A stretch of DNA of 64,000 nucleotides. Source: Streptomyces sp. CC0208 (GTDB lineage: Bacteria > Actinomycetota > Actinomycetes > Streptomycetales > Streptomycetaceae). Position numbers and translations under genes: made by a program. Shown piece by piece: positions 4,070 to 42,702 of this stretch; the first letter of the stretch is position 1; each line of letters begins with the position of its first letter. The notes under the pieces are model-generated. The model made no database searches. It was not told the DNA's origin and saw only the letters and a list, made by a program, of their open reading frames with translations. The stretch is taken from positions 1,488,001 to 1,552,000 of the forward strand of contig NZ_CP031969.1 in NCBI RefSeq assembly GCF_003443735.1, given 5' to 3'.

Positions 4070-6145
4070 CTACGCGGCCTTCTCCTCCCGCTCAGTCACC
4101 GGCACTTGAGGACCCCCCGCCTCATCGAGCCACCCCCGCAGCACATCGTGAACCCGCTCCGCCCCGACCAGCCCCTCCGGCGGCGCGGACAGGGCGAGCG
4201 GCGACAACAGGAACGGCTTCCCCTGGGCCCCGCCAAGACCACCGTGCGACCCGATCTGCTCCTCGAAGGCCAGCACCTCCCCCTCCGCGGGGTCGTACCA
4301 GGAGTTGACCATGATGTCGGCGGTGTGCGGAAAGGAGTGCGTACGCCGTACGACATCCGCCGCGCCGGGCCCGAAGTCGGCCAACGGCCCCGGATTCTCG
4401 TCCAGTTGATCCAGCGGGATCTCCGTGCCGAACGGTCCGAGGACCACCCCGCCGTGCTCCTCGCTGCGCACCAGGAGGAAGCCGATGCCGGGATGGTTGG
4501 CGAGGGTGGTCAGCAGGGCCGGGTGCCGCGCGTCCAGCTCCTCCTTGGTCATCCGGTGGTGCACGTCGGGGAAGGAGACAAGGCCGAGGTTGCCGGAGGC
4601 CAGCACGATCGGCTCGGACCCACGGGCGGGCCGGTACTCCTCGCGCTTCTCCTTGCCCGGCCGACGCAGCGCGGCCCGGACGGCGGCGCGGGCCTCGGCC
4701 CCGCTGTGGGTGCGCTCGGCCCTGCGCGGCACGGGCAGCCCGCAGCCCGCCCGGACCAGGTCGCCGAGGGTGAGGCCGTAGCGGGCGCGGAAGGTCTCGC
4801 CGGGGCTCTGGCCGTGGTCGGAGAGGACGACGATCCGGTACGGGCGCGGGGCGTGCTCGGCGACGTTCTCGATCAGCGCGAGCGAGCGGTCCAGGCGCTC
4901 CAGGACCTTCGCGGCGTCGCGGCTGGTGGGCCCGGAGTGGTGGGCGACCTCGTCGTAGGCGACGAGGTCGGCGTAGACGGCCGTACGGCCCGCGAGCATG
5001 TCGCCCATGACGGCGGCGACCACGACATCGCGCTCCACGACGGTCGCGAAGGCCCGGACGAGGGGGTACAGGCCGCCGCGGCCCACCCGGGGGCGCTCCT
5101 TGCGGGTCCGGGCCCGGGTCGACTGGCCGATCTCCCGGCCGACCTCGGCGAAGAAGGACAGGGCGGTGCGCACGGCGTTGGCGGGGTCGGAGAAGTAGGC
5201 GAAGTAGCCGGCCCGGGAGCGGGTCTCGCGGCTGCGGCGGCGGGTGGCGATGGACAGGACGAGGGCCTGTTCCTCGGCGCCGCCGGAGAAGAGGTTGCCG
5301 CGGCTGGCGCCGTCGACGGTGAGCAGTCCGCCGTGTCCCGCCTGCTCCACGGCCCGGTGCTGGAGTTCGACGGCGCTGGTCGGGCGGTTGCAGACCATCA
5401 CCTCGCCGCGGTCCTTCTCGTACCAGCGGAAGGCGGGGACGTCGTGGTTGCTGCCGTGCAGGATGCCGAGCTGGCTGGCGCCGGTCTGGCTGGACCAGTC
5501 GGTGCGCCAGGAGGTGAGCCGGTGGGTGGGGCGCACGGCACGGCCGGGGGTGTCGCTGTGCCCGATCCAGCGGGCGATCGTGGGCATCAGGCCCTTGCCG
5601 ACGGCGGCCAGCAGGACGTCGTGACCGACTCCGTCGAGCTGGAGGAAGACCGTGCCGGGGGTGGCCGGGCCCAGGGGGCCGCCCCTGCGGCGGCGGTCGG
5701 CGAGACGGTACAGGCGGCGCCGGTAGGCCTCGTCGTCGCGCACCGCGAGGGCACCACCGGTGGCGGAGGCGACCGCGGACATCACGGCGGCGACCACGAC
5801 CGCGGTCTCCGGGGCGGCGTCGCCGCGCTCGGCGGGGTTCAGGCGCAGGGCGAGCAGCAGCAGCGCTCCGTTGAGGAAGAAGACGAGCAGCCCGAGCACG
5901 AGGGTCGGGACGAGCAGGAACAGCCGGACGAGCAGCGGCCACACCACGGCCGAGAGCACACCGAAGGCGCCGGCGCCGAAGGCCGCCGTGACCGCGATCC
6001 GGGTCGCGCTGTCACCGGTCGGGGACTGGAGCCGGAAGTCCGGCAGGATGCCCGCCAGCACCAGCATCGTCAGGGTGGAGACGGCCCATACCGTGACGCT
6101 CCGCCCGACCTGACTGGCCACCCGTCGCCAACGCCGCGCACCCAC
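4070..6145 (-). CDS. Membrane-anchored alkaline phosphatase/phosphodiesterase-superfamily protein
   Basis: About 691 residues. The first 140 hold roughly four hydrophobic helices (for example VWAVSTLTMLVLAGILPDF, LLVRLFLLVPTLVLGLLVFF), resembling small actinobacterial holin-like membrane domains. The rest is an alkaline-phosphatase-superfamily domain of the type I phosphodiesterase/nucleotide pyrophosphatase kind: metal site QLDGVGHD, likely nucleophile region SSQTGASQ, further sites AYDEVAHHSG and VVLSDHGQSPG. It probably cleaves a phosphoester at the membrane; the substrate is unknown. GTG 6145 has GAGGT eight bases upstream; GTG 6154 is possible but crowds that site. It appears to be a single-gene unit. 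Confidence 0.8.
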   Translation of the reverse strand: MGARRWRRVASQVGRSVTVWAVSTLTMLVLAGILPDFRLQSPTGDSATRIAVTAAFGAGAFGVLSAVVWPLLVRLFLLVPTLVLGLLVFFLNGALLLLALRLNPAERGDAAPETAVVVAAVMSAVASATGGALAVRDDEAYRRRLYRLADRRRRGGPLGPATPGTVFLQLDGVGHDVLLAAVGKGLMPTIARWIGHSDTPGRAVRPTHRLTSWRTDWSSQTGASQLGILHGSNHDVPAFRWYEKDRGEVMVCNRPTSAVELQHRAVEQAGHGGLLTVDGASRGNLFSGGAEEQALVLSIATRRRSRETRSRAGYFAYFSDPANAVRTALSFFAEVGREIGQSTRARTRKERPRVGRGGLYPLVRAFATVVERDVVVAAVMGDMLAGRTAVYADLVAYDEVAHHSGPTSRDAAKVLERLDRSLALIENVAEHAPRPYRIVVLSDHGQSPGETFRARYGLTLGDLVRAGCGLPVPRRAERTHSGAEARAAVRAALRRPGKEKREEYRPARGSEPIVLASGNLGLVSFPDVHHRMTKEELDARHPALLTTLANHPGIGFLLVRSEEHGGVVLGPFGTEIPLDQLDENPGPLADFGPGAADVVRRTHSFPHTADIMVNSWYDPAEGEVLAFEEQIGSHGGLGGAQGKPFLLSPLALSAPPEGLVGAERVHDVLRGWLDEAGGPQVPVTEREEKAA

Positions 6146-6218
6146 GCCCCGCACACCTCACGTCCCGGCCCGTCGTCGGTGCGGGCGCTGGGACCAGCGT
6201 GTCATACGGGTCGGACAG

Positions 6219-6703: not shown

Positions 6704-7477
6704 GTGCCGGTGGAGATCACCTGGTGGGGCCACGCCACCTGCACGGTCACGGATTCGGACGTACGTGTCCTCACCGACCCTCTGTTCGCCCGCCGGCTCG
6801 CGCATCTGCGCCGGCGCCGCGGGGCGGTACCCCCGCCCGAGGCCCGGCGCGCGGACGTGGTCCTCGTCTCCCACCTGCACGCCGATCATCTGCACGTTCC
6901 CTCGCTCGCGCGGCTGGAGCCGGGCACGCGCCTGCTCGTGCCCCGGGGCGCACCTCGCCAGGTGCCGGGGCTGCGCCGGCTCACCGACCTGCGCGTGGAC
7001 GAGGTGGTGCCCGGTGACGAGCGACGCGTCGGCGACCTCCTGATACGCGTGGTGCCCGCCTGGCACGACGGGCGGCGCCTGCCGGTCGGCCCGCACCGCT
7101 CCCCCGCGCTCGGTTTCGTCGTGGAGGGCTCGGCGCGGACGTACTTCGCCGGGGACACCGGGCTGTTCGACGACATGGCCAAGGAGGTCGGGCCGGTCGA
7201 CGTGGCACTGTTGCCGGTCGGCGGGTGGGGCCCGTATCTCGGGGAGGGGCACCTCGACGCGGGGCGCGCGGCCGAGGCGCTGGCCCGGCTGGAGCCGCGC
7301 AGTGCGGTGCCGGTGCACTACGGGACGTACTGGCCGATCGGGATGGACGCGGTACGGCCGCACGAGTTCCACGCTCCGGGCGCGGAGTTCGTGCGGTTGG
7401 CGGCCGAGTTCGCGCCCGGCGTGGACGTGCACCGGCTGGAGCACGGGGAGAGCGTGCGACTGGAGGTCGCACGGTGA
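6704..7477 (+). CDS. MBL-fold metal-dependent hydrolase
   Basis: A 257-residue metallo-beta-lactamase-fold hydrolase. The metal motif HxHxDH appears as SHLHADHLH near residue 65; other ligands are in VPAWHDG, YFAGDTG and PVHYGTYW. The shape (ITWWGHATCTV at the N-terminus) is that of the UlaG/YtnP-like L-lactonase and phospholipase-D-like group; the substrate cannot be read from sequence. GTG 6704 follows AAGGAGG by nine bases. The stop overlaps the start of the DedA gene (GTGA), so the two are translated together, which suggests a lipid- or membrane-related role. Confidence 0.88.
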   Translation: MPVEITWWGHATCTVTDSDVRVLTDPLFARRLAHLRRRRGAVPPPEARRADVVLVSHLHADHLHVPSLARLEPGTRLLVPRGAPRQVPGLRRLTDLRVDEVVPGDERRVGDLLIRVVPAWHDGRRLPVGPHRSPALGFVVEGSARTYFAGDTGLFDDMAKEVGPVDVALLPVGGWGPYLGEGHLDAGRAAEALARLEPRSAVPVHYGTYWPIGMDAVRPHEFHAPGAEFVRLAAEFAPGVDVHRLEHGESVRLEVAR

Positions 7478-8088
7478 CGTGGCTCGCAGCCGCCACCACG
7501 GGGGCGACGCCCGGGGCCGCCGGACAGGCGATCGGGTATCCGACGTTGTTCCTGCTGGTGTTTCTGGGGGCGCTGGTGCCGGTGGTGCCCACGGGGGCGC
7601 TGGTGAGTTCGGCGGCCGTCGTGGCGTTCCATCAGACGGCGCCCCTCTCCCTGCTGTTCGTGTTCGTCACGGCCTCCGCCGCCGCGTTCCTCGGGGACAT
7701 CGCCCTGTACTGGCTGGGGCGGCGCGGGATGAAGTCGAAGAACGGCTCGCGGTGGCTGGAGGCGCTTCGGTCCCGGGCGCCGGAGGAGCGGCTCTCGCAG
7801 GCGCAGGGGAAGCTGGCCGACCACGGGGTGGCCGTCCTCGTGCTGTCCCGGCTGGTGCCGGCGGGGCGGATTCCGGTGATGCTGGCCTGCCTGATGGCCG
7901 AGTGGCCCTTGCGGCGCTTCGTCCGGGGGAATCTGCCGGCGTGTCTGGCCTGGGCCGTGACGTATCAGCTGATCGGGATTCTGGGCGGGTCACTGTTCAA
8001 GGAGCCCTGGCAGGGGGTGGTCGCGGCGGTCGCGCTGACCATCGCGATCAGCACGGCGCCGACGGTGTGGAAGCGGGTCCGCTCCTAG
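7474..8088 (+). CDS. DedA-family membrane protein
   Basis: A 204-residue integral membrane protein of the DedA/SNARE-associated family, thought to scallop or flip phospholipids such as undecaprenyl phosphate. Visible family features are the re-entrant region FLGALVPVVPTGALVSS, GDIALYWLGRRG, and VLSRLVPAGRIPVMLACLMA, the conserved arginine/glycine turn. The GTG start overlaps the upstream MBL stop by four bases. Its TAG stop shares the palindrome CTAG with the stop of the convergent MBL gene on the other strand, so the two convergent genes overlap by their stop codons and no terminator fits between them. Confidence 0.88.
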   Translation: MTWLAAATTGATPGAAGQAIGYPTLFLLVFLGALVPVVPTGALVSSAAVVAFHQTAPLSLLFVFVTASAAAFLGDIALYWLGRRGMKSKNGSRWLEALRSRAPEERLSQAQGKLADHGVAVLVLSRLVPAGRIPVMLACLMAEWPLRRFVRGNLPACLAWAVTYQLIGILGGSLFKEPWQGVVAAVALTIAISTAPTVWKRVRS

Positions 8089-9140
8089 GGGGTCTCCAGC
8101 ACCCGTGAGCCTCCGACGGGCAGATCCCACAGGTCCTCCCGGGCCAGCCCCGCCTTCTCCCACGCCTGCCTGACCCTGGTCAGCGGCTCCAGCACCGGCT
8201 CCGCCGACAGGACGAACGTCGCCCAGTGCATCGGGGCCATCCTCCTCGCGCCCAGGTCCTGGGCCGCTCGCACGGCCTCTTCCGGGTCGCAGTGGACGTC
8301 GCTGAGCCACCAGCGGGGGTCGTAGGCGCCGATGGGCAGCAGGGCGAGGTCGATACCGGGGTAACGCCGGCCGATGCGGGAGAACCAGTGGCCGTAGCCC
8401 GTGTCGCCGGCGAAGTAGACGCGCTGCCCGTCCTGGGCGGTGAGGACCCAGCCGCCCCACAGGGTGCGGCAGGTGTCGGTGAGGGAGCGCTTGGACCAGT
8501 GGTGGGCGGGGACGAAGTCGAAGCGGACACCGCCCAGTTCGGCCGCCTCCCACCAGTCGAGTTCGGTCACCGCGGTGAAGCGGCGGCGGTGGAACCAGCG
8601 GGCCAGGCCGGCCGGGACGAAGACCGGGGTGTCGCGCGGCAGGCGGCGCAGGGTCGGGGCATCCAGGTGGTCGTAGTGGTTGTGGCTGATGACGACCGCG
8701 TCGACGCGCGGCAGGGCCTCCCAGTCGATGCCGACCGGGGTGATGCGCGCCGGGGTGCCGAGGATGCGGCGGGACCAGACCGGGTCGGTGAGGACGGTCA
8801 GGCCGCCGATCCGCACCACCCAACTCGCGTGTCCCGCCCAGGAGACGGCGACCGTGTCGGCGTCGACGGCGGGCAGCGGGCCGGGTGCGTAGGGCAGCTT
8901 CGGGATGTCGGCCAGGCCCTCGGGCCCGGGGCGTACGGCGCCCTCGCGGGCGAAGCGGGCCATGGCCTTCAGACCGGGCAACGGGGCGGTCAGACGGTCG
9001 TGGAAGGACTTCGGCCACACTCTGCGCTCCCCGAGCGGGCGGGGGGCGGCGAGCGGTGGGGACGCGGGCGCGAAAGAGGAGGGGGCCGAGGGCTCGTCGG
9101 CCACTCGCATGCTGGTGGTCGACTCGAACTGCTGCGTCAT
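8085..9140 (-). CDS. MBL-fold hydrolase, NAPE-PLD/RomA-like
   Basis: A 351-residue metallo-beta-lactamase-fold protein of the N-acyl-phosphatidylethanolamine phospholipase D-like group (COG2220). Motifs in order: WAGHASWVVRIGG, the zinc motif ISHNHYDHLD, VPAHHWSKRS, YFAGDTGYGHW and MHWATFVLS. Members hydrolyse phosphodiester bonds or act as metal-dependent lactonases; the precise substrate is unknown. An N-terminal segment of about 45 residues rich in Ser, Ala and Pro is not conserved. The ATG start overlaps the stop of the upstream aminotransferase-like gene (ATGA), which fixes it. A second MBL gene lies 600 bases away on the other strand beyond dedA. Confidence 0.88.
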   Translation of the reverse strand: MTQQFESTTSMRVADEPSAPSSFAPASPPLAAPRPLGERRVWPKSFHDRLTAPLPGLKAMARFAREGAVRPGPEGLADIPKLPYAPGPLPAVDADTVAVSWAGHASWVVRIGGLTVLTDPVWSRRILGTPARITPVGIDWEALPRVDAVVISHNHYDHLDAPTLRRLPRDTPVFVPAGLARWFHRRRFTAVTELDWWEAAELGGVRFDFVPAHHWSKRSLTDTCRTLWGGWVLTAQDGQRVYFAGDTGYGHWFSRIGRRYPGIDLALLPIGAYDPRWWLSDVHCDPEEAVRAAQDLGARRMAPMHWATFVLSAEPVLEPLTRVRQAWEKAGLAREDLWDLPVGGSRVLETP

Positions 9141-10381
9141 CGAGGAGGCTCCCATCGCCGAGCGTCGTCGCGGAGGTCGTCGAAGACCGACTCCAGGGTG
9201 GTCAACGCGCGTTGCACGTGTGGCAGTTCCAACGGCGCGGGTGACGTGAGGCATTCCGCGCGTTCCTCGTCGGATCCGCCGAGCAGGGGGCCGGTCGACA
9301 GCCGCACGCGCAGCGCGCCGAGGTCGTCGCCGAAGCGGTGGCCGCCGGGCGCCGGCATGCCGAGCCGGGCGGTGAGGAAGTCCTCCAGGTCCTGGGCGTC
9401 GCCGACGCCCCGCGCGACGAGCGCGGGCCGCAGGGGGCCGAGGTCGACGTAGAGGTGGCGGCCGGCCCGCGGGGGCCGGCAGAGCGCGCCCGCGCCGACG
9501 ACCACGGAGTGCGCGGCGGCGGCCACGCGCGCGTGGAGGTGTCCTACGGCGGTGCGGTGGGCGGTGACCGGTTCGGGCTCGGTCAGGGCGTGGGCGGCGG
9601 CCGCGGCGACGGGGGCGGCGACGCGGGCGCCGAGGGCGGTCAGGACGTCCAGCACACGCGCGCGAAGGCCGTCGCCGTCGCCGTTCGCCGGGAAGCGGGC
9701 GAAGGCGGCCGGCCATCCGGCCGGGAGCAGGCTGCCGGCCAGGTCGGTGACGACGGTGACCCGGTCGGGCAGCATCTCGGCGGGGCTGAGCCAGACCGTC
9801 TCGCGCGGGGCGTGCACGGTGTCGCGCCAGGTCTCGTCGCTGACCAGGTGCAGGCCCTCCCCCGCGGCGGCCTCGACGGTCTCGTGCAGCACCTCGGGCG
9901 GGGCGACGGTGGCGGTGGGGTCGTCGGCGACGGACAGCACCAGCAGCCGCGGGTCACCGCCCTCGTCGCGCACCCGGCGCACGGTCTCCAGGAGGGCGTA
10001 CGGATCCGGGATACCGCCGCACTCGGCCGGTGTCGCCACATGGAACACGGGTCTGCCCAACAGGCGTGCGTACGGCGCCCACCAGGCGGCACAGGGGCGG
10101 GGCACCAGGACGTCACCGCCGAGCGCGGCGGTGAGGGCGAGCAGCAGGGAGGGGGCGCCGGGGGCGGCGACCACGTGGTCGGGTTCGGCGGGCAGGCCGC
10201 GCCGGGCCGTGTAGACGCAGGCGGCCTCCAGGAGCGGGATGCCGCCACCGACCGGTTCGGCGCGGGGGCGGGCGGCCGCGGCGGCGAGGACGGCGGCGAG
10301 TTCGGGCAGGACGGGCAGCCCGTCGTCGGGCAGCGGAGGGCCGTAGCGGACGGGGCCGTGGCCCTCCGGGTCGGTCCGCAT
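9137..10381 (-). CDS. Aminotransferase-fold protein lacking any lysine (probable pseudoenzyme)
   Basis: A 414-residue protein with the layout of class I/II pyridoxal-phosphate aminotransferases: GAPSLLLALTAALGG, LLVLSVADDPTATVAPPEVL (the NPxNPT-like region) and LVSDETWRD (the PLP-binding Asp region, with Trp where Tyr is usual). The strand that should carry the Schiff-base lysine reads VTDLAGSLLPAGWPAA, with Leu in the lysine position, and the full 414 residues contain no lysine at all. It therefore cannot form the usual internal aldimine. GGAGGTGACC sits directly before the ATG. It is coupled by ATGA to the MBL hydrolase downstream. Folding and a binding role are possible; ordinary transamination is not. 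Confidence 0.8.
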   Translation of the reverse strand: MRTDPEGHGPVRYGPPLPDDGLPVLPELAAVLAAAAARPRAEPVGGGIPLLEAACVYTARRGLPAEPDHVVAAPGAPSLLLALTAALGGDVLVPRPCAAWWAPYARLLGRPVFHVATPAECGGIPDPYALLETVRRVRDEGGDPRLLVLSVADDPTATVAPPEVLHETVEAAAGEGLHLVSDETWRDTVHAPRETVWLSPAEMLPDRVTVVTDLAGSLLPAGWPAAFARFPANGDGDGLRARVLDVLTALGARVAAPVAAAAAHALTEPEPVTAHRTAVGHLHARVAAAAHSVVVGAGALCRPPRAGRHLYVDLGPLRPALVARGVGDAQDLEDFLTARLGMPAPGGHRFGDDLGALRVRLSTGPLLGGSDEERAECLTSPAPLELPHVQRALTTLESVFDDLRDDARRWEPPR

Positions 10382-10537
10382 GGTCACCTCCGTAGGGCGC
10401 TGTCCGGTGACTCGTCCGGTCCGCCGTCTCGTTCTCTCGCGCCTGCCGCGCTCCTCGCGCTCCCAGTACCCACGGCGCCGCCGTCCCATGGGCGCGGGCG
10501 CGGGTTGCGCCTGTCACACGGACCCGAGGTTTCGATC

Positions 10538-11431: not shown

Positions 11432-12229
11432 TCAGCCGGCCTCGTCCCGCAGGATCTGCTCGCGCATCCGTCCGCAGCAGCGGCTGATCAGCCGGGACAC
11501 GTGCATCTGGGAGATGCCCAGCTGCTCGGCGATCCGGCTCTGCGTCATGTCGCCGAAGAAACGCATGTAGAGGATGGCGCGCTCCCGCTCGGGGAGAGCG
11601 GCCAGCCGGGGCTTGACGGACTCGCGGTCGACGACCGTGTCCAGGGCGGGGTCGAAGGAACCGAGGGCGTCGGCGAGCGAGTAGCCGTCCTCGCTGCCGG
11701 GCAGTTCGGCGTCGAGGGAGAGGGCGCTGAAGCTCTCCAGGGCCTCGAGGCCCACCAGGACGTCCTCCTCGCTCATGCTCGCGTGCTCGGCGATCTCGGC
11801 GACGGTGGGCCTGCGTCCCGGGATGGTCTGGGCGAGGTCCTGGGAGGCAATGCGGACGCGATTGCGCAGGTCCTGGACCCGGCGCGGCACGTGCAGCGTC
11901 CACATGTGGTCGCGGAAGTGGCGCTTGATCTCGCCGGTGATGGTGGGTACGGCGTAGCTCTCGAAGGCGTGGCCGAGGGCGGGGTCGTAGCGGTCGACGG
12001 CCTTGACCAGGCCGAGGGCGGCGACCTGGCGCAGGTCGTCGAAGCTCTCGCCGCGGCTGCGGAAGCGTCCGGCGAGCCGGTCGGCCATGGGCAGCCAGGC
12101 CTCCACGACCTGTCCGCGCAGGGTGTCGCGCTCGGGTCCCGGGGGCAGTGCGGCGAGCCTGCGGAAGGCTTCGGCCGTGTCGGGGGCGTCGTCGTGCGGG
12201 TGGTGCTTCGCGCTCACTGGAGTGGGCAT
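11432..12229 (-). CDS. RNA polymerase sigma factor, SigB/SigF/SigG subfamily
   Basis: A 265-residue group 3 sigma factor. Region 2 contains RGESFDDLRQVAALGLVKAVDRYD and FESYAVPTITGEIKRHFRD, the hallmark of the SigB/F/G group; region 3 follows (VPRRVQDLRNRV, TVAEIAEHASMSEEDV); region 4 ends the protein with MTQSRIAEQLGISQMHVSR as the helix-turn-helix. Streptomyces have many such paralogues controlling osmotic, oxidative and developmental responses, usually held by RsbW-type anti-sigma factors. No anti-sigma gene is adjacent. Promoters matching the SigB consensus lie at 12801, 16708, 19619 and 30767, so some of this neighbourhood may be its regulon. ATG 12229 has GGGAG eleven bases upstream. 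Confidence 0.9.
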   Translation of the reverse strand: MPTPVSAKHHPHDDAPDTAEAFRRLAALPPGPERDTLRGQVVEAWLPMADRLAGRFRSRGESFDDLRQVAALGLVKAVDRYDPALGHAFESYAVPTITGEIKRHFRDHMWTLHVPRRVQDLRNRVRIASQDLAQTIPGRRPTVAEIAEHASMSEEDVLVGLEALESFSALSLDAELPGSEDGYSLADALGSFDPALDTVVDRESVKPRLAALPERERAILYMRFFGDMTQSRIAEQLGISQMHVSRLISRCCGRMREQILRDEAG

Positions 12230-38475: not shown

Positions 38476-39399
38476 TCAGCGGAGCGCGGGTTCGTCGAGC
38501 GTCAGCGTGCCCGCTTCGGCGTCGAGTTCGGCGGTCACTCCGAACGGCATGGTCAGCGCCCCCTCGCAGTGGCCGAAGCCGAACTCCTCGACGACCGGTA
38601 CGCCAAGGCCGCCGAGCCGGTCGGCCAGGACCGCTCGCAGCGTGCCGTAGGGCCCGCATCCGGCCCAGGAGCCGAGGGCGATCCCCTGGACGCCGTCCAG
38701 CCAGCCGGTGCGCAGGAGCTGGGTCAGCAGGCGGTCGACGCGGTACGCCTGCTCCCCCACGTCCTCGATCAGCAGCAGTCCGCCCCGGGCACCGGGGCGG
38801 GCGTGCCGCGTGCCGAGGTCGGAGACGAGCAGGCTGAGGCAGCCGCCCAGGGTGAGCCCGCGGGCCCTGCCGGGGGCCAGGGGGGTGCCGCGGGAGGTGA
38901 GGACACGGACGGTCTCCGGGGCGAACAGCGTGGCCCTCAGGTGCTCCTGCGCGACGGTGTTCTTGACGAAGTCGACACCGGCGGCGGCCGGACCGTAGAG
39001 CGTGACCAGTCCCGCCCGGGTGGCGAACGCCTGGTGCAGTGTCGTGACGTCGCTGAAGCCCACGAAGACCTTCGGTCCGGCGGCCCGCATCGCCTCCCAG
39101 TCGAGCAGATCGACGATCCGCTGGGCCCCGTAGCCGCCCCTGGCGCACAGCACCGCGTCCACGGAGGGGTCGCACCAGGCCTGCTGGAGGTCGGCGGCGC
39201 GATCGGCGTCGGCTCCCGCCAGGTAGCCCAGCTCGCCGTGCGTGTCCAGGACATGCGGGGCGACCACGGGGTCGAGGTCCCAGCCGCGCAGGAGGTCGAG
39301 TCCGGCCTGGAGCCGTTCCTCCACGACCGGCCCGCTCGGCGCGACCACGGCCACGCGGGCTCCGGGCGCGAGCCTGGACGGTCGTACGAGTTCCTTCAC
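38476..39399 (-). CDS. LD-carboxypeptidase (peptidase S66)
   Basis: A 307-residue S66 LD-carboxypeptidase, which removes the terminal D-alanine from murein tetrapeptides. The nucleophile serine is in FVGFSDVTTLHQAF; the substrate-side motif is VLCARGGYGAQRIVDLLDW; the catalytic Glu/His pair lies in LLIEDVGEQAYRVDRLL and FGFGHCEGALTMPFG. No signal peptide, so it works in the cytoplasm on recycled peptides. The GTG start overlaps the S9 peptidase stop (GTGA), so the two are coupled. Confidence 0.9.
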   Translation of the reverse strand: MKELVRPSRLAPGARVAVVAPSGPVVEERLQAGLDLLRGWDLDPVVAPHVLDTHGELGYLAGADADRAADLQQAWCDPSVDAVLCARGGYGAQRIVDLLDWEAMRAAGPKVFVGFSDVTTLHQAFATRAGLVTLYGPAAAGVDFVKNTVAQEHLRATLFAPETVRVLTSRGTPLAPGRARGLTLGGCLSLLVSDLGTRHARPGARGGLLLIEDVGEQAYRVDRLLTQLLRTGWLDGVQGIALGSWAGCGPYGTLRAVLADRLGGLGVPVVEEFGFGHCEGALTMPFGVTAELDAEAGTLTLDEPALR

Positions 39400-41381
39400 C
39401 TGGTGAGCTCCAATGTCGGGACGCCGGGCGGGTTGAGCCCGAACACCTGGGCGTACAGGGAGAGTTCGGCCTCCAGTGCGCGGATCATCGTGTCCGCCCG
39501 GCGGAACCCGTGCCCCTCCCCCTCGAAGGCGAGGTAGGCGTGCGGCACCTGCCGTCCCGCGATCCGGGCGAGGAACCGCTCGCACTGCGCGGGCGGGCAG
39601 ATCACGTCGTCCAGGCCCTGGAGCAGCAGGAAGGGCGCGGTGACCCGGTCGGCGTGCTCGACGGGCGAGCGTTCCGTGTACCGTCCGGGGACCTCGGCGA
39701 GCGGTCCGACGAGGCTCTCCAGGTACTGGGACTCGAAGTCGTGGGTCTCCCCGGTGCCCCAGCCGGCCAGGTCGAGGATCGGGTAGACGATGGTGCCGCA
39801 GGCGTAGACGTCGGTCGTGGTGAGCGAGGCGGCGGCGGTCCAGCCGCCCGCGCTGCCGCCGCGGACGGCGAGCCGGTCGCGGTCGGCGGTGTCCTCGTCG
39901 GCGAGGGCGAGCGCGACGGCCGCGCAGTCCTCGACGTCGACCACGCCCCACTGCTCGCGCAACCGGTTGCGGTACTCCCGTCCGTATCCGGTCGAGCCGC
40001 CGTAGTTGACCTCGGCGACCCCGATGCCGCGCGAGGTGAAGTAGGCGATCGAGAGGTCGAGCACGAGGGGTGCGTGGCCGGTCGGTCCGCCGTGCGCCCA
40101 GACGACGTACGGCGGCAGCTCGTCGCCGGGCGCCCGGTACCCGGGGTGGTGCGGCGGGTAGACGTGGGCGTGGATGTCCCGGCCGTCCGGCCCGGTGAAG
40201 ACGCGGATCTGGGGCTCGGGGTAGTGCACGGGGTCGACCGGGTCGTCGTGCTCGGCGCCGATCACCCGGGCCCGGCCGATGGGGGCGCCCCCGCGCGAGG
40301 TTGTTCGAGCGTGGGGGAGGGTGTCCAGCTCCACGACCTCGTAGGCGGTGCGCGGGCTGGCGCCCACGGCGACGATCCGCTCGCCGTGCACCGCGAGGGT
40401 GGGCGCGAACTCGGTCCAGGGACCGGCCGCGTCGACGAGTTCACCGGTCTCCGGGTCCAGGATGCCGAGCGCGGTCGATCCGGTGCCGTGCACCACGGCG
40501 ATCAGACCGTTGTCCAGCGGGGCGAACCAGCGATGCCCGAGCTTCCACAGGGCGCCGCCGAACTCCTCCTCGCGCGGGCAGAGCTGCTCGCCGTCACGGT
40601 AGAGGTTCCACCAGCCGGTGCGGTCGCTCGCGTACAGGAGGCGGCCGTCGGGCGCCCAGTCGGCCTGGGCGATGGACTCCTCGGGGCCGCCGGCCACCGT
40701 GCGGGGCTCCCGGAGCGTGCCGCCCAGGACCTCTGCGACGACCAGTTCCGTGCCGTCCCAGGGCATCCGCGGATGGTCCCAGGCGAGCCAGGCCGCGCGT
40801 GAGCCGTCGGACGAGATACGGGGGCCGGTGACGAACCGGTGGCGGTCGTCGGTGAGTTCGCGCACCGCGTCCCGGTCCTGCACGGCCGAGCCGTCCAGCG
40901 GCACGGCGGCCAGGACCCGGCGGACGTCGGTGGGACCGTCCCCGGTGAACTCCTCCAGGACGCACCACACTTCACCGAGTTCGGATCTCAACTGCGGCTC
41001 CGCCCAGCGCAGTCCGCCACCCACGGGCGAGACCGGCGTGAGGGGGCGCGGCTCACCGCCGGGCTCGTACCGGTACAGCCGCTGGTCGGCGAAGTGCACG
41101 AACACGACGAGCGGTTCGCCGGCCACCACCGCGCCGGCCCAGGGGTGGCCGCCGTACTCGATGACCCGGCTGCGCACGTTCCACGGCGCGGGCAGCACCG
41201 ACTCCTCGGTCCCGTCGGCGTGTCTGCGCACCAGGGTGCGGCGGCCGCCCTCGGTGGGCCGGGGTTCGGTCCACCACACCTCGTCCCCGACGAAGCCCAG
41301 CCATTCGGGGCGCCCGTCGTGCGCGGCGGCGAGCGCCGCGTCGATGGGTGAGGGCCAGGAACCGTATGCCGACGTCTGCAC
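39396..41381 (-). CDS. S9-family prolyl-oligopeptidase-like peptidase
   Basis: A 661-residue peptidase with a beta-propeller N-terminal half (AWLAWDHPRMPWDGTELVVA, ADWAPDGRLLYASDR) and an alpha/beta-hydrolase C-terminal half. The catalytic serine is in RGGSAGGWTA, Asp in LLLQGLDDVICP and His in FEGEGHGFRRADT. It probably acts on dipeptides or short peptides as an aminopeptidase (DPP IV/acylaminoacyl family). GTG 41381 follows GGGGGAG. The LD-carboxypeptidase gene overlaps its end; the M20 gene ends 16 bases upstream. Confidence 0.9.
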   Translation of the reverse strand: MQTSAYGSWPSPIDAALAAAHDGRPEWLGFVGDEVWWTEPRPTEGGRRTLVRRHADGTEESVLPAPWNVRSRVIEYGGHPWAGAVVAGEPLVVFVHFADQRLYRYEPGGEPRPLTPVSPVGGGLRWAEPQLRSELGEVWCVLEEFTGDGPTDVRRVLAAVPLDGSAVQDRDAVRELTDDRHRFVTGPRISSDGSRAAWLAWDHPRMPWDGTELVVAEVLGGTLREPRTVAGGPEESIAQADWAPDGRLLYASDRTGWWNLYRDGEQLCPREEEFGGALWKLGHRWFAPLDNGLIAVVHGTGSTALGILDPETGELVDAAGPWTEFAPTLAVHGERIVAVGASPRTAYEVVELDTLPHARTTSRGGAPIGRARVIGAEHDDPVDPVHYPEPQIRVFTGPDGRDIHAHVYPPHHPGYRAPGDELPPYVVWAHGGPTGHAPLVLDLSIAYFTSRGIGVAEVNYGGSTGYGREYRNRLREQWGVVDVEDCAAVALALADEDTADRDRLAVRGGSAGGWTAAASLTTTDVYACGTIVYPILDLAGWGTGETHDFESQYLESLVGPLAEVPGRYTERSPVEHADRVTAPFLLLQGLDDVICPPAQCERFLARIAGRQVPHAYLAFEGEGHGFRRADTMIRALEAELSLYAQVFGLNPPGVPTLELTR

Positions 41382-41397
41382 GTTCTCCCCCACTTGT

Positions 41398-42702
41398 TCA
41401 GGCCGTTCGCAGGAAGCGGTCGAGTACCCGTACGCCGAAGTGCAGTGCCTCGACGGGGACACGCTCGTCGACCCCGTGGAACAGGGCCTGGTAGTCGAAG
41501 CCCTCCGGGAGCTTCAGGGGCGTGAACCCGTACCCGGTGATGCCCAGGCGGGAGAACTGCTTGGCGTCCGTTCCGCCGGACATGCAGTACGGCACCACGT
41601 GTCCCTCGGGCGCGAACTCCTCCACCGCGGCACGCATGCCGGCGTACGTCGGCGAGTCGACCGGGGCCTGGAGGGCGACCTCGCGATGGCTGAACTCCCA
41701 GTCCACGTCGGGCCCCGTGAGCAGGTCGAGGGTCGCGCGGAACTCGTCCTCGCCGCCGGCCAGACAGCGGCCGTCGACGTAGGCCACGGCCTCCCCCGGG
41801 ATCACGTTGAGCTTGTAACCGGCTTCCAGCATGGTCGGGTTGGCGCTGTTGCGGACGGTCGCCTCGACCAGCTGGGCGGCGGGGCCCAGCTTCTCCAGCA
41901 GCCGGTCCACGTCACTCAGGTCGGTCTCGATGCCGTAGAGCGCGGCGAGTTCCGTAAGGGCCGCGCGGACGGTCGGGGTGAGCCGCAGCGGCCACTCGTG
42001 CTCGCCGATACGGGTCACGGCGGCGGCGAGCCGGGTGACCGCGTTCTCCTTGTTGACCTTGGAGCCGTGCCCGGCCCGGCCGCGCGCGGTGAGCTTGAGC
42101 CAGCCCGTGCCGCGTTCCCCCGCCGCGATCGGGTAGATCTGCCGCCCGGCGCCGTCGTGGAAGGTGAACGCCCCCGACTCACTGATCCCCTCCGTGCAGC
42201 CCTCGAAGAGCTCCGGGTGCTCGTCGGCGAGGAACCCGGAGCCGTCCTCGGCGCTGGCCTCCTCGTCGGCGGTGAACGCGATCACGAGGTCCCGCCGGGG
42301 CCGTACGCCCTGTCGGGCCCAGCCCCGCACCACGGACAGGATCATCGCGTCCATGTTCTTCATGTCGACCGCCCCGCGCCCCCACACGACCCCGTCGCGG
42401 ACCTCCCCGGAGAAGGGGTGCACGCTCCAGTCGGCGGCCTCGGCGGGCACCACGTCCAGATGACCGTGGACGAGCAGGGCGTCCGCCGACGGGTCACTGC
42501 CCTCGATGCGCGCGACGACGTTCGTACGGCCCTTGGTGCGCTCCAGCATCAGGGGCTCAAGGCCCGCCCCGGCCAGCTGTTCGGCCGCGTACTCGGCGGC
42601 GGGCCGCTCCCGGCAGTCGCCGCCGCCCCGGTTGGTGGTGTCGATGCGGATGAGGTCGGAGGTGAACCGGACGACCTCGTCCAGTGCCTGCTGGTCAGCC
42701 AT
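41398..42702 (-). CDS. M20/M25/M40-family metallopeptidase
   Basis: A 434-residue dinuclear zinc peptidase. First ligand HGHLDVVPA, bridging Asp in GRGAVDMKNMDA, catalytic and ligand glutamates in FTADEEASAED; the dimerisation domain follows (ARGRAGHGSKV), and YCMSGGTDAKQF ends the active site. Relatives are dipeptidases and N-acyl-amino-acid amidohydrolases. The ATG at 42702 lies after GGAGGAG and eight bases inside the upstream M55 gene, so expression is coupled. Confidence 0.9.
   Translation of the reverse strand: MADQQALDEVVRFTSDLIRIDTTNRGGGDCRERPAAEYAAEQLAGAGLEPLMLERTKGRTNVVARIEGSDPSADALLVHGHLDVVPAEAADWSVHPFSGEVRDGVVWGRGAVDMKNMDAMILSVVRGWARQGVRPRRDLVIAFTADEEASAEDGSGFLADEHPELFEGCTEGISESGAFTFHDGAGRQIYPIAAGERGTGWLKLTARGRAGHGSKVNKENAVTRLAAAVTRIGEHEWPLRLTPTVRAALTELAALYGIETDLSDVDRLLEKLGPAAQLVEATVRNSANPTMLEAGYKLNVIPGEAVAYVDGRCLAGGEDEFRATLDLLTGPDVDWEFSHREVALQAPVDSPTYAGMRAAVEEFAPEGHVVPYCMSGGTDAKQFSRLGITGYGFTPLKLPEGFDYQALFHGVDERVPVEALHFGVRVLDRFLRTA

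Follow-up and report, generated by a model that had tools for sequence, protein, structure and literature searches.

The window analysed in this study is a stretch of 64,000 nucleotides which forms part of a 9.32-Mb single-contig Streptomyces genome, and the following features were found at the locus of interest:

8085 to 9140, minus strand: NAPE-PLD-like hydrolase of the metallo-beta-lactamase fold, 351 aa, in ATGA overlap with the next gene (Pfam Lactamase_B_2, 7.1e-49; human NAPE-PLD 4qn9, E 1e-59; HxHxDH motif, SHNHYDHLD, read from the sequence)
9137 to 10381, minus strand: putative pseudo-aminotransferase of fold type I, lysine-free, 414 aa (translation; Pfam Aminotran_1_2, E 3.7e-8; predicted structure and fold match)
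9734 to 9736, minus strand: codon of Gly216, the residue which takes the place of the PLP-binding lysine (Lys234 in Thermus AspAT, Lys258 in AspAT; from the alignment and the column counts, with positions reckoned from the ATG at 10381)
10454 to 10507, minus strand: non-coding conserved block, including GGGTAC at 10471-10466; it is a candidate promoter of SigB-family type and lies about 90 nt ahead of the start codon (block search; SigB-type -10 sequences in PMC8346170)

The coordinates of the initial annotation are right, but the reading frame of the pseudo-aminotransferase occupies the minus strand, between 10381 (start) and 9137 (end of the stop codon); the plus-strand frame over the gene has an internal stop. 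Named relatives at 94-97% identity are found in Streptomyces canus and S. pseudovenezuelae. An in-frame ATG lies upstream at 10489 and would give a product of 450 aa, likewise lysine-free. Among the relatives, the conserved block holding this ATG stands in each of the three possible frames with respect to the gene (29, 34 and 36 of 99), hence the start codon at 10381 is favoured, and the GGGTAC block was rejected as an N-terminal extension owing to its variable frame.

Translation has also borne out the complete absence of lysine from the 414 residues. The 37 predicted genes of the window have a mean lysine content of 2.0%, which gives a naive P of 2e-4 for zero in 414. The content varies widely among genes and zero lysines per se is just moderately unusual; a 688-aa predicted protein at 39396-41462 (minus strand) has 1 lysine, so lysine poverty is not rare in the window. 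Judging from the alignments, the protein is set apart by the coordinated loss of its cofactor-site residues rather than by its zero-lysine count.

The aminotransferase fold proposed earlier for this protein is supported by domain, model and structural comparisons alike, and fold type I architecture is predicted with high confidence. Aminotran_1_2 was the sole Pfam match (residues 60-289, above the cut-off), and the NCBIfam matches were all PLP enzymes and all below their cut-offs. The GntR winged-helix N-terminal domain of the MocR/GntR regulators was absent, as Pfam gave Aminotran_1_2 alone for the window protein and for all 24 members of the set A1. The AlphaFold2 model, built from an input alignment of 32 rows of which 8 were lysine-bearing relatives, reached a pLDDT of 91.7 and a pTM of 0.89. 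In Foldseek and VIA-align it grouped with the aspartate and prephenate aminotransferases, about 350 residues being superposed at an rmsd of about 2.1 A (Z about 40), with an identity of 13-21% to the enzymes of this branch in the top 20 structural alignments. In the phmmer search against solved structures, Thermus aspartate aminotransferase was found at E 3e-11 and Gly216 stood opposite its Lys234, in agreement with the replacement of the Schiff-base lysine noticed before.

This replacement is a property of the family. Copies at an identity of at least 59% are present in at least 150 of the 199 sampled Streptomyces genomes, and in the first 50 aligned copies the lysine column was Gly in each row. 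An earlier split into 174 lysine-less and 9 lysine-bearing sequences had been made by the lysine column itself and would be circular for a statement that Lys never occurs, therefore the neighbouring hydrolase was taken as an independent criterion. The recount covered 192 distinct domains spanning the lysine column, from loci skewed to close relatives because the best matches were what the searches returned. The 154 distinct domains with the hydrolase downstream had Gly in 144 cases, Ala in 10 and Lys in 0, whereas the 38 without it had Gly in 21, Ala in 1 and Lys in 16. The 16 sequences with Lys all stem from loci that had been retrieved as relatives, and that hydrolase is beside none of them. 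Close homologues carrying the lysine, which would have pointed to a local error, were thus not seen among the sequences sharing the neighbouring gene, and a sequence error or local mutation was rejected since the replacement is family-wide. Lysine poverty extends to the other members too: in the aligned part of 163 near-full-length lysine-less sequences, 82 had no lysine, 68 had one, 10 had two and three had three.

The remaining contacts of the cofactor have largely gone as well, which strengthens the initial interpretation. Sites were assigned by AspAT residue numbering in the 174 lysine-less sequences with the nine lysine-bearing relatives as guide; gapped sequences were left out per column (171 or 169 of 174 counted). 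In the lysine-less set Tyr70 is mostly replaced by Ala, Ser, Pro or Gly, the Ser and Lys of the phosphate loop mostly by Ala and Pro, and Lys258 by Gly or Ala, with His at this position in none of them. The stacking Trp140 has become Ala or Pro in 164/169, Asn194 Asp in 171/171, Tyr225 Trp in 162/171 and Arg266 Pro in 171/174 (residue 224). At the position of S255 (residue 213) Asp is found in 167/174, whereas the nine lysine-bearing relatives have Gly. The phosphate-binding residues of PLP enzymes (Ser/Thr loop, S255 and R266) are therefore missing as a group. The pyridine-nitrogen Asp and the carboxylate Arg are retained, namely Asp222 (D182 of the window protein) in 171/171 and Arg386 (R360) in 174/174, the latter column being Lys in 4/9 of the lysine-bearing relatives. 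With an acid near the phosphate site and the arginine gone, tight binding of PLP or PMP appears unlikely. The columns of the old pocket had a mean entropy of 0.653 against 0.982 for random columns; the difference was not significant (P 0.075), so no functional pocket is claimed.

In the pairs examined, purifying selection acts on the gene, and its retention by selection, suspected from the beginning, was supported by pairwise dN/dS well below 1 throughout. Against close orthologues (12 pairs) the gene had a dN/dS of 0.16-0.38, compared to 0.07-0.23 for the hydrolase, 0.12-0.30 for a nearby sigma factor and 0.15-0.26 for a phosphodiesterase gene (9 pairs). The constraint is weaker than on the hydrolase, which had the lower value in 12/12 pairs, and the pseudo-aminotransferase had the highest value of the compared genes in 9/12. 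These values argue against a dead gene. Both lineage-wide loss of the lysine and purifying selection, by which lysine-less fold-I pseudoenzymes can be recognised, were thus found in this family.

Since the cofactor residues are lost and selection persists, the protein works probably by binding rather than by catalysis. Our preferred reading, with a probability of about 0.7, is that it is a non-catalytic, cofactor-free descendant of the class I aminotransferases which has been kept for binding. Such a protein would neither anchor PLP nor carry out transamination. A small carboxylate might plausibly be bound in the old pocket through the retained Asp182 and Arg360, which by alignment correspond to the Asp facing the PLP nitrogen and the Arg holding the substrate carboxylate in the ancestor, and the effect would be exerted on a partner through the surface or the dimer interface.

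The nearest candidate for such a partner is the hydrolase encoded directly downstream. The overlap was confirmed in the sequence (hydrolase ATG at 9140-9138, aminotransferase TGA at 9139-9137), and the ATGA coupling described in the initial annotation is real. The same annotation called the neighbour phospholipase-D-like; this label holds in the NAPE-PLD sense, human NAPE-PLD being the nearest among solved structures. Two further genes of the region were noted. Another hydrolase of the metallo-beta-lactamase fold (Lactamase_B_2, E 4.8e-37) lies at 6707-7477 on the plus strand, opposite to the first and in the same conserved gene block, and an ORF at 4073-6154 (minus strand) with Phage_holin_4_2 and type I phosphodiesterase domains is syntenic in many Streptomyces loci. 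The ORF at 7461-8088, which had no Pfam hit, is presumably DedA-like.

It may be proposed that the protein serves the NAPE-PLD-like hydrolase as a dedicated subunit for regulation or scaffolding, and that the two together act on membrane lipids or on another amide or phosphodiester. This narrower reading is compatible with a pseudoenzyme and accounts well for the gene order: the hydrolase is adjacent downstream on the same strand in 95/99 flanked lysine-less loci (93 under a stricter criterion, with 4/6 exceptions at contig ends) and also follows the gene in both genomes of another genus. We nevertheless consider it doubtful, as each gene is found without the other. A hydrolase match at E <= 1e-80 was missing from 30/199 Streptomyces genomes, and 19 of these 30 match the pseudo-aminotransferase at E <= 1e-110. 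For 16 of the 19 the locus was fetched, chosen because the gene was present; each of the 16 had an intact gene, with no NAPE-PLD-like hydrolase next to it. Median dN/dS in hydrolase-less genomes (0.217; 78 pairs, 13 genomes) was similar to that in genomes having the hydrolase (0.207; 6 pairs, four genomes); three sequences of this comparison show one stop, presumably the true stop inside the alignment. Conversely, in 20 hydrolase-bearing genomes with a weak or diverged match, the gene beside the hydrolase was missing in 3 (G121, G156 and G037), was a fragment beside an intact hydrolase in 2 (G041 and G010) and was present as pieces in several frames in 1 (G180). The pseudo-aminotransferase is therefore dispensable in some lineages, and, since selection on it is similar in genomes without the hydrolase, it is more than an accessory of that enzyme. 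An obligate partnership as the sole role was rejected on these grounds, and the initial explanation of the gene's retention by the coupling is not supported as stated. The two genes form an old neighbourhood and no obligate machine; the function of the pseudo-aminotransferase would be independent of the hydrolase.

The origin of the family was explored with two maximum-likelihood trees, both midpoint-rooted, with 29 and 23 members respectively taken from the 174-sequence lysine-less set (below 80% and below 78% mutual identity, at least 330 columns). In the first tree (42 rows, with long-branch warnings and one sequence present under two names, L091/L195) the 29 lysine-less sequences fell on one side of one branch with a support of 100/100 and a length of 0.79. 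The second tree (41 rows), which adds two orthologues from another genus of the same family and seven more lysine-bearing relatives, again separated the lysine-less sequences by one branch (100/100, length 0.58). The two other-genus orthologues, both of which have Ala at the lysine column, are free of lysine over the aligned part and have the hydrolase gene on their own strand, were sister to the Streptomyces copies. The topology fits one event of loss that preceded the split of Streptomyces from the other genus; alternatively, a transfer between the two may have taken place. A plasmid search gave 30 records, all below 60% identity.

The nearest lysine-bearing clade in the second tree holds Streptomyces sequences, one of them from the genome of the window itself:

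9062220 to 9063458 of the genome contig (G000:C1; L189:4956-6194): lysine-bearing relative, with an upstream neighbour on the plus strand (L189:3631-4947) and few bases between

This relative has about 41% identity to the pseudo-aminotransferase over nearly the full length. It differs in having a full PLP site (GSK, PSW, DNPTGT, SDEIYRD, GLSKSLALGGWRIG) and another gene context. Its upstream neighbour is, as we take it, KamA-like (lysine 2,3-aminomutase) and the gene that follows the relative presumably acyl-CoA-dehydrogenase-like, a context which is perhaps that of a beta-amino-acid pathway. The presence of this lysine-bearing relative, together with the fact that the active sites of fold type I enzymes are built at dimer interfaces, would suit a heterodimer in which the pseudo-aminotransferase is the inactive half beside an active aminotransferase, in the style of SPTLC1 or glycine decarboxylase alpha. 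We regard such an arrangement as improbable, because the lysine-bearing sister clade (at least 48% identity to the query, with lysine directly observed in five Streptomyces members) occurs in just 24/199 Streptomyces genomes and the relative lies far off, at 9.06 Mb compared to 1.50 Mb for the pseudo-aminotransferase. An obligate heterodimer with this relative is disfavoured for the same reason.

The retained equivalents of Asp222 and Arg386 could also speak for a protein which is still an enzyme, either dependent on PMP without the lysine, in the manner of ColD or E1, or catalysing without any cofactor. ColD and E1 are lysine-less PMP-dependent dehydratases in which His replaces Lys, whereas the present family has no such His, has lost the phosphate-loop Ser and Lys along with Arg266, and places Asp where the lysine-bearing relatives have Gly, so that catalysis of this kind is quite improbable. 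A decaying relic without function, to which the losses and truncations in some lineages and the dN/dS above that of the operon neighbour might point, is the least probable reading of all in view of the constraint in each computed pair, the wide occurrence across Streptomyces and the family-specific fixed residues (e.g. D154, D213, G216 and P224).

The upstream region offers a lead on the regulation of the gene. When the 300 nt ahead of each of 162 non-identical lysine-less genes were searched, a single block centred on GGGTAC, which is invariant by the construction of the search, came up at 99 sites. In the window the single match above 12 bits was its own copy, which scored 50.7 bits and had itself been used in training; five shuffled windows (mononucleotide shuffles, one strand) reached no more than 4.5 bits. 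GGGTAY was found in 107/171 upstream regions where 13.8 were expected from shuffles, though a few positions listed in this count are parsing artefacts and, the upstream sequences being related, neither these counts nor those of the block are independent. None of 43 further loci (diverged, hydrolase-less, other-genus and lysine-bearing) had the block, the best score being 6.7 bits, hence it is lineage-specific. GGGTAC occurs as a -10 among the promoters recognised by S. coelicolor SigB homologues (PMC8346170). The -35 part of the block fits the published GNNT just loosely. At 11432-12229 lies a gene for a sigma factor with sigma-70 regions 2, 3 and 4, and a catalase and a DJ-1/PfpI gene are nearby. 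SigB-type stress control in the clade of the window is thus a lead rather than an established result; there, the pseudo-aminotransferase would probably be cotranscribed with the NAPE-PLD-like hydrolase, perhaps from a promoter of this type. A tentative and rather speculative extension is that an ancient fold, freed of PLP, has become a stress protein of the Streptomycetaceae, sensing a small carboxylate on the vacated pocket (Asp182, Arg360 and Trp185), induced through a SigB-type factor in part of the genus and having targets beyond its operon neighbour.

These observations matter in two respects. With an Aminotran_1_2 match above the cut-off and NCBIfam matches to PLP enzymes, annotation pipelines are likely to label the protein as PLP-dependent, despite the missing defining lysine and the loss of most of the cofactor site. 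The family, with a lysine-bearing relative present in the genome of the window, also provides a clean natural case of how an aminotransferase fold can lose its cofactor and yet be retained in another function. In open-access literature searches directed at the family or its hydrolase neighbour, no paper on it was found by title or abstract start, two of the result sets being covered by their first 15 of 124 and 15 of 260 entries.

In comparison to the class I aminotransferases of the AspAT branch (Thermus AspAT 1bjw/1b5o and the prephenate aminotransferases), the fold, the domain order, the pyridine-nitrogen Asp and the substrate-carboxylate Arg are held in common, whereas the pseudo-aminotransferase is without the Schiff-base lysine, the phosphate-binding Arg266, the stacking Trp, Asn194 and Tyr225. 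Among lysine-less fold-I subunits, SPTLC1 and glycine decarboxylase alpha are classic cases which are inactive and yet retained by selection. They pair with an active paralogue, whereas no conserved paralogue partner was found for the pseudo-aminotransferase, the sister clade being confined to 24/199 genomes. Rv3778c of Mycobacterium tuberculosis is another fold-I-related protein without the PLP lysine, judged likely noncatalytic (PMC12910592). It belongs to the cysteine-desulfurase branch, a different subfamily, and is likened here by description. Hence, lysine-less fold-I proteins have precedents, and the pseudo-aminotransferase differs from them by its place in the AspAT class I branch, the completeness of the cofactor-site replacement and its genus-wide range.
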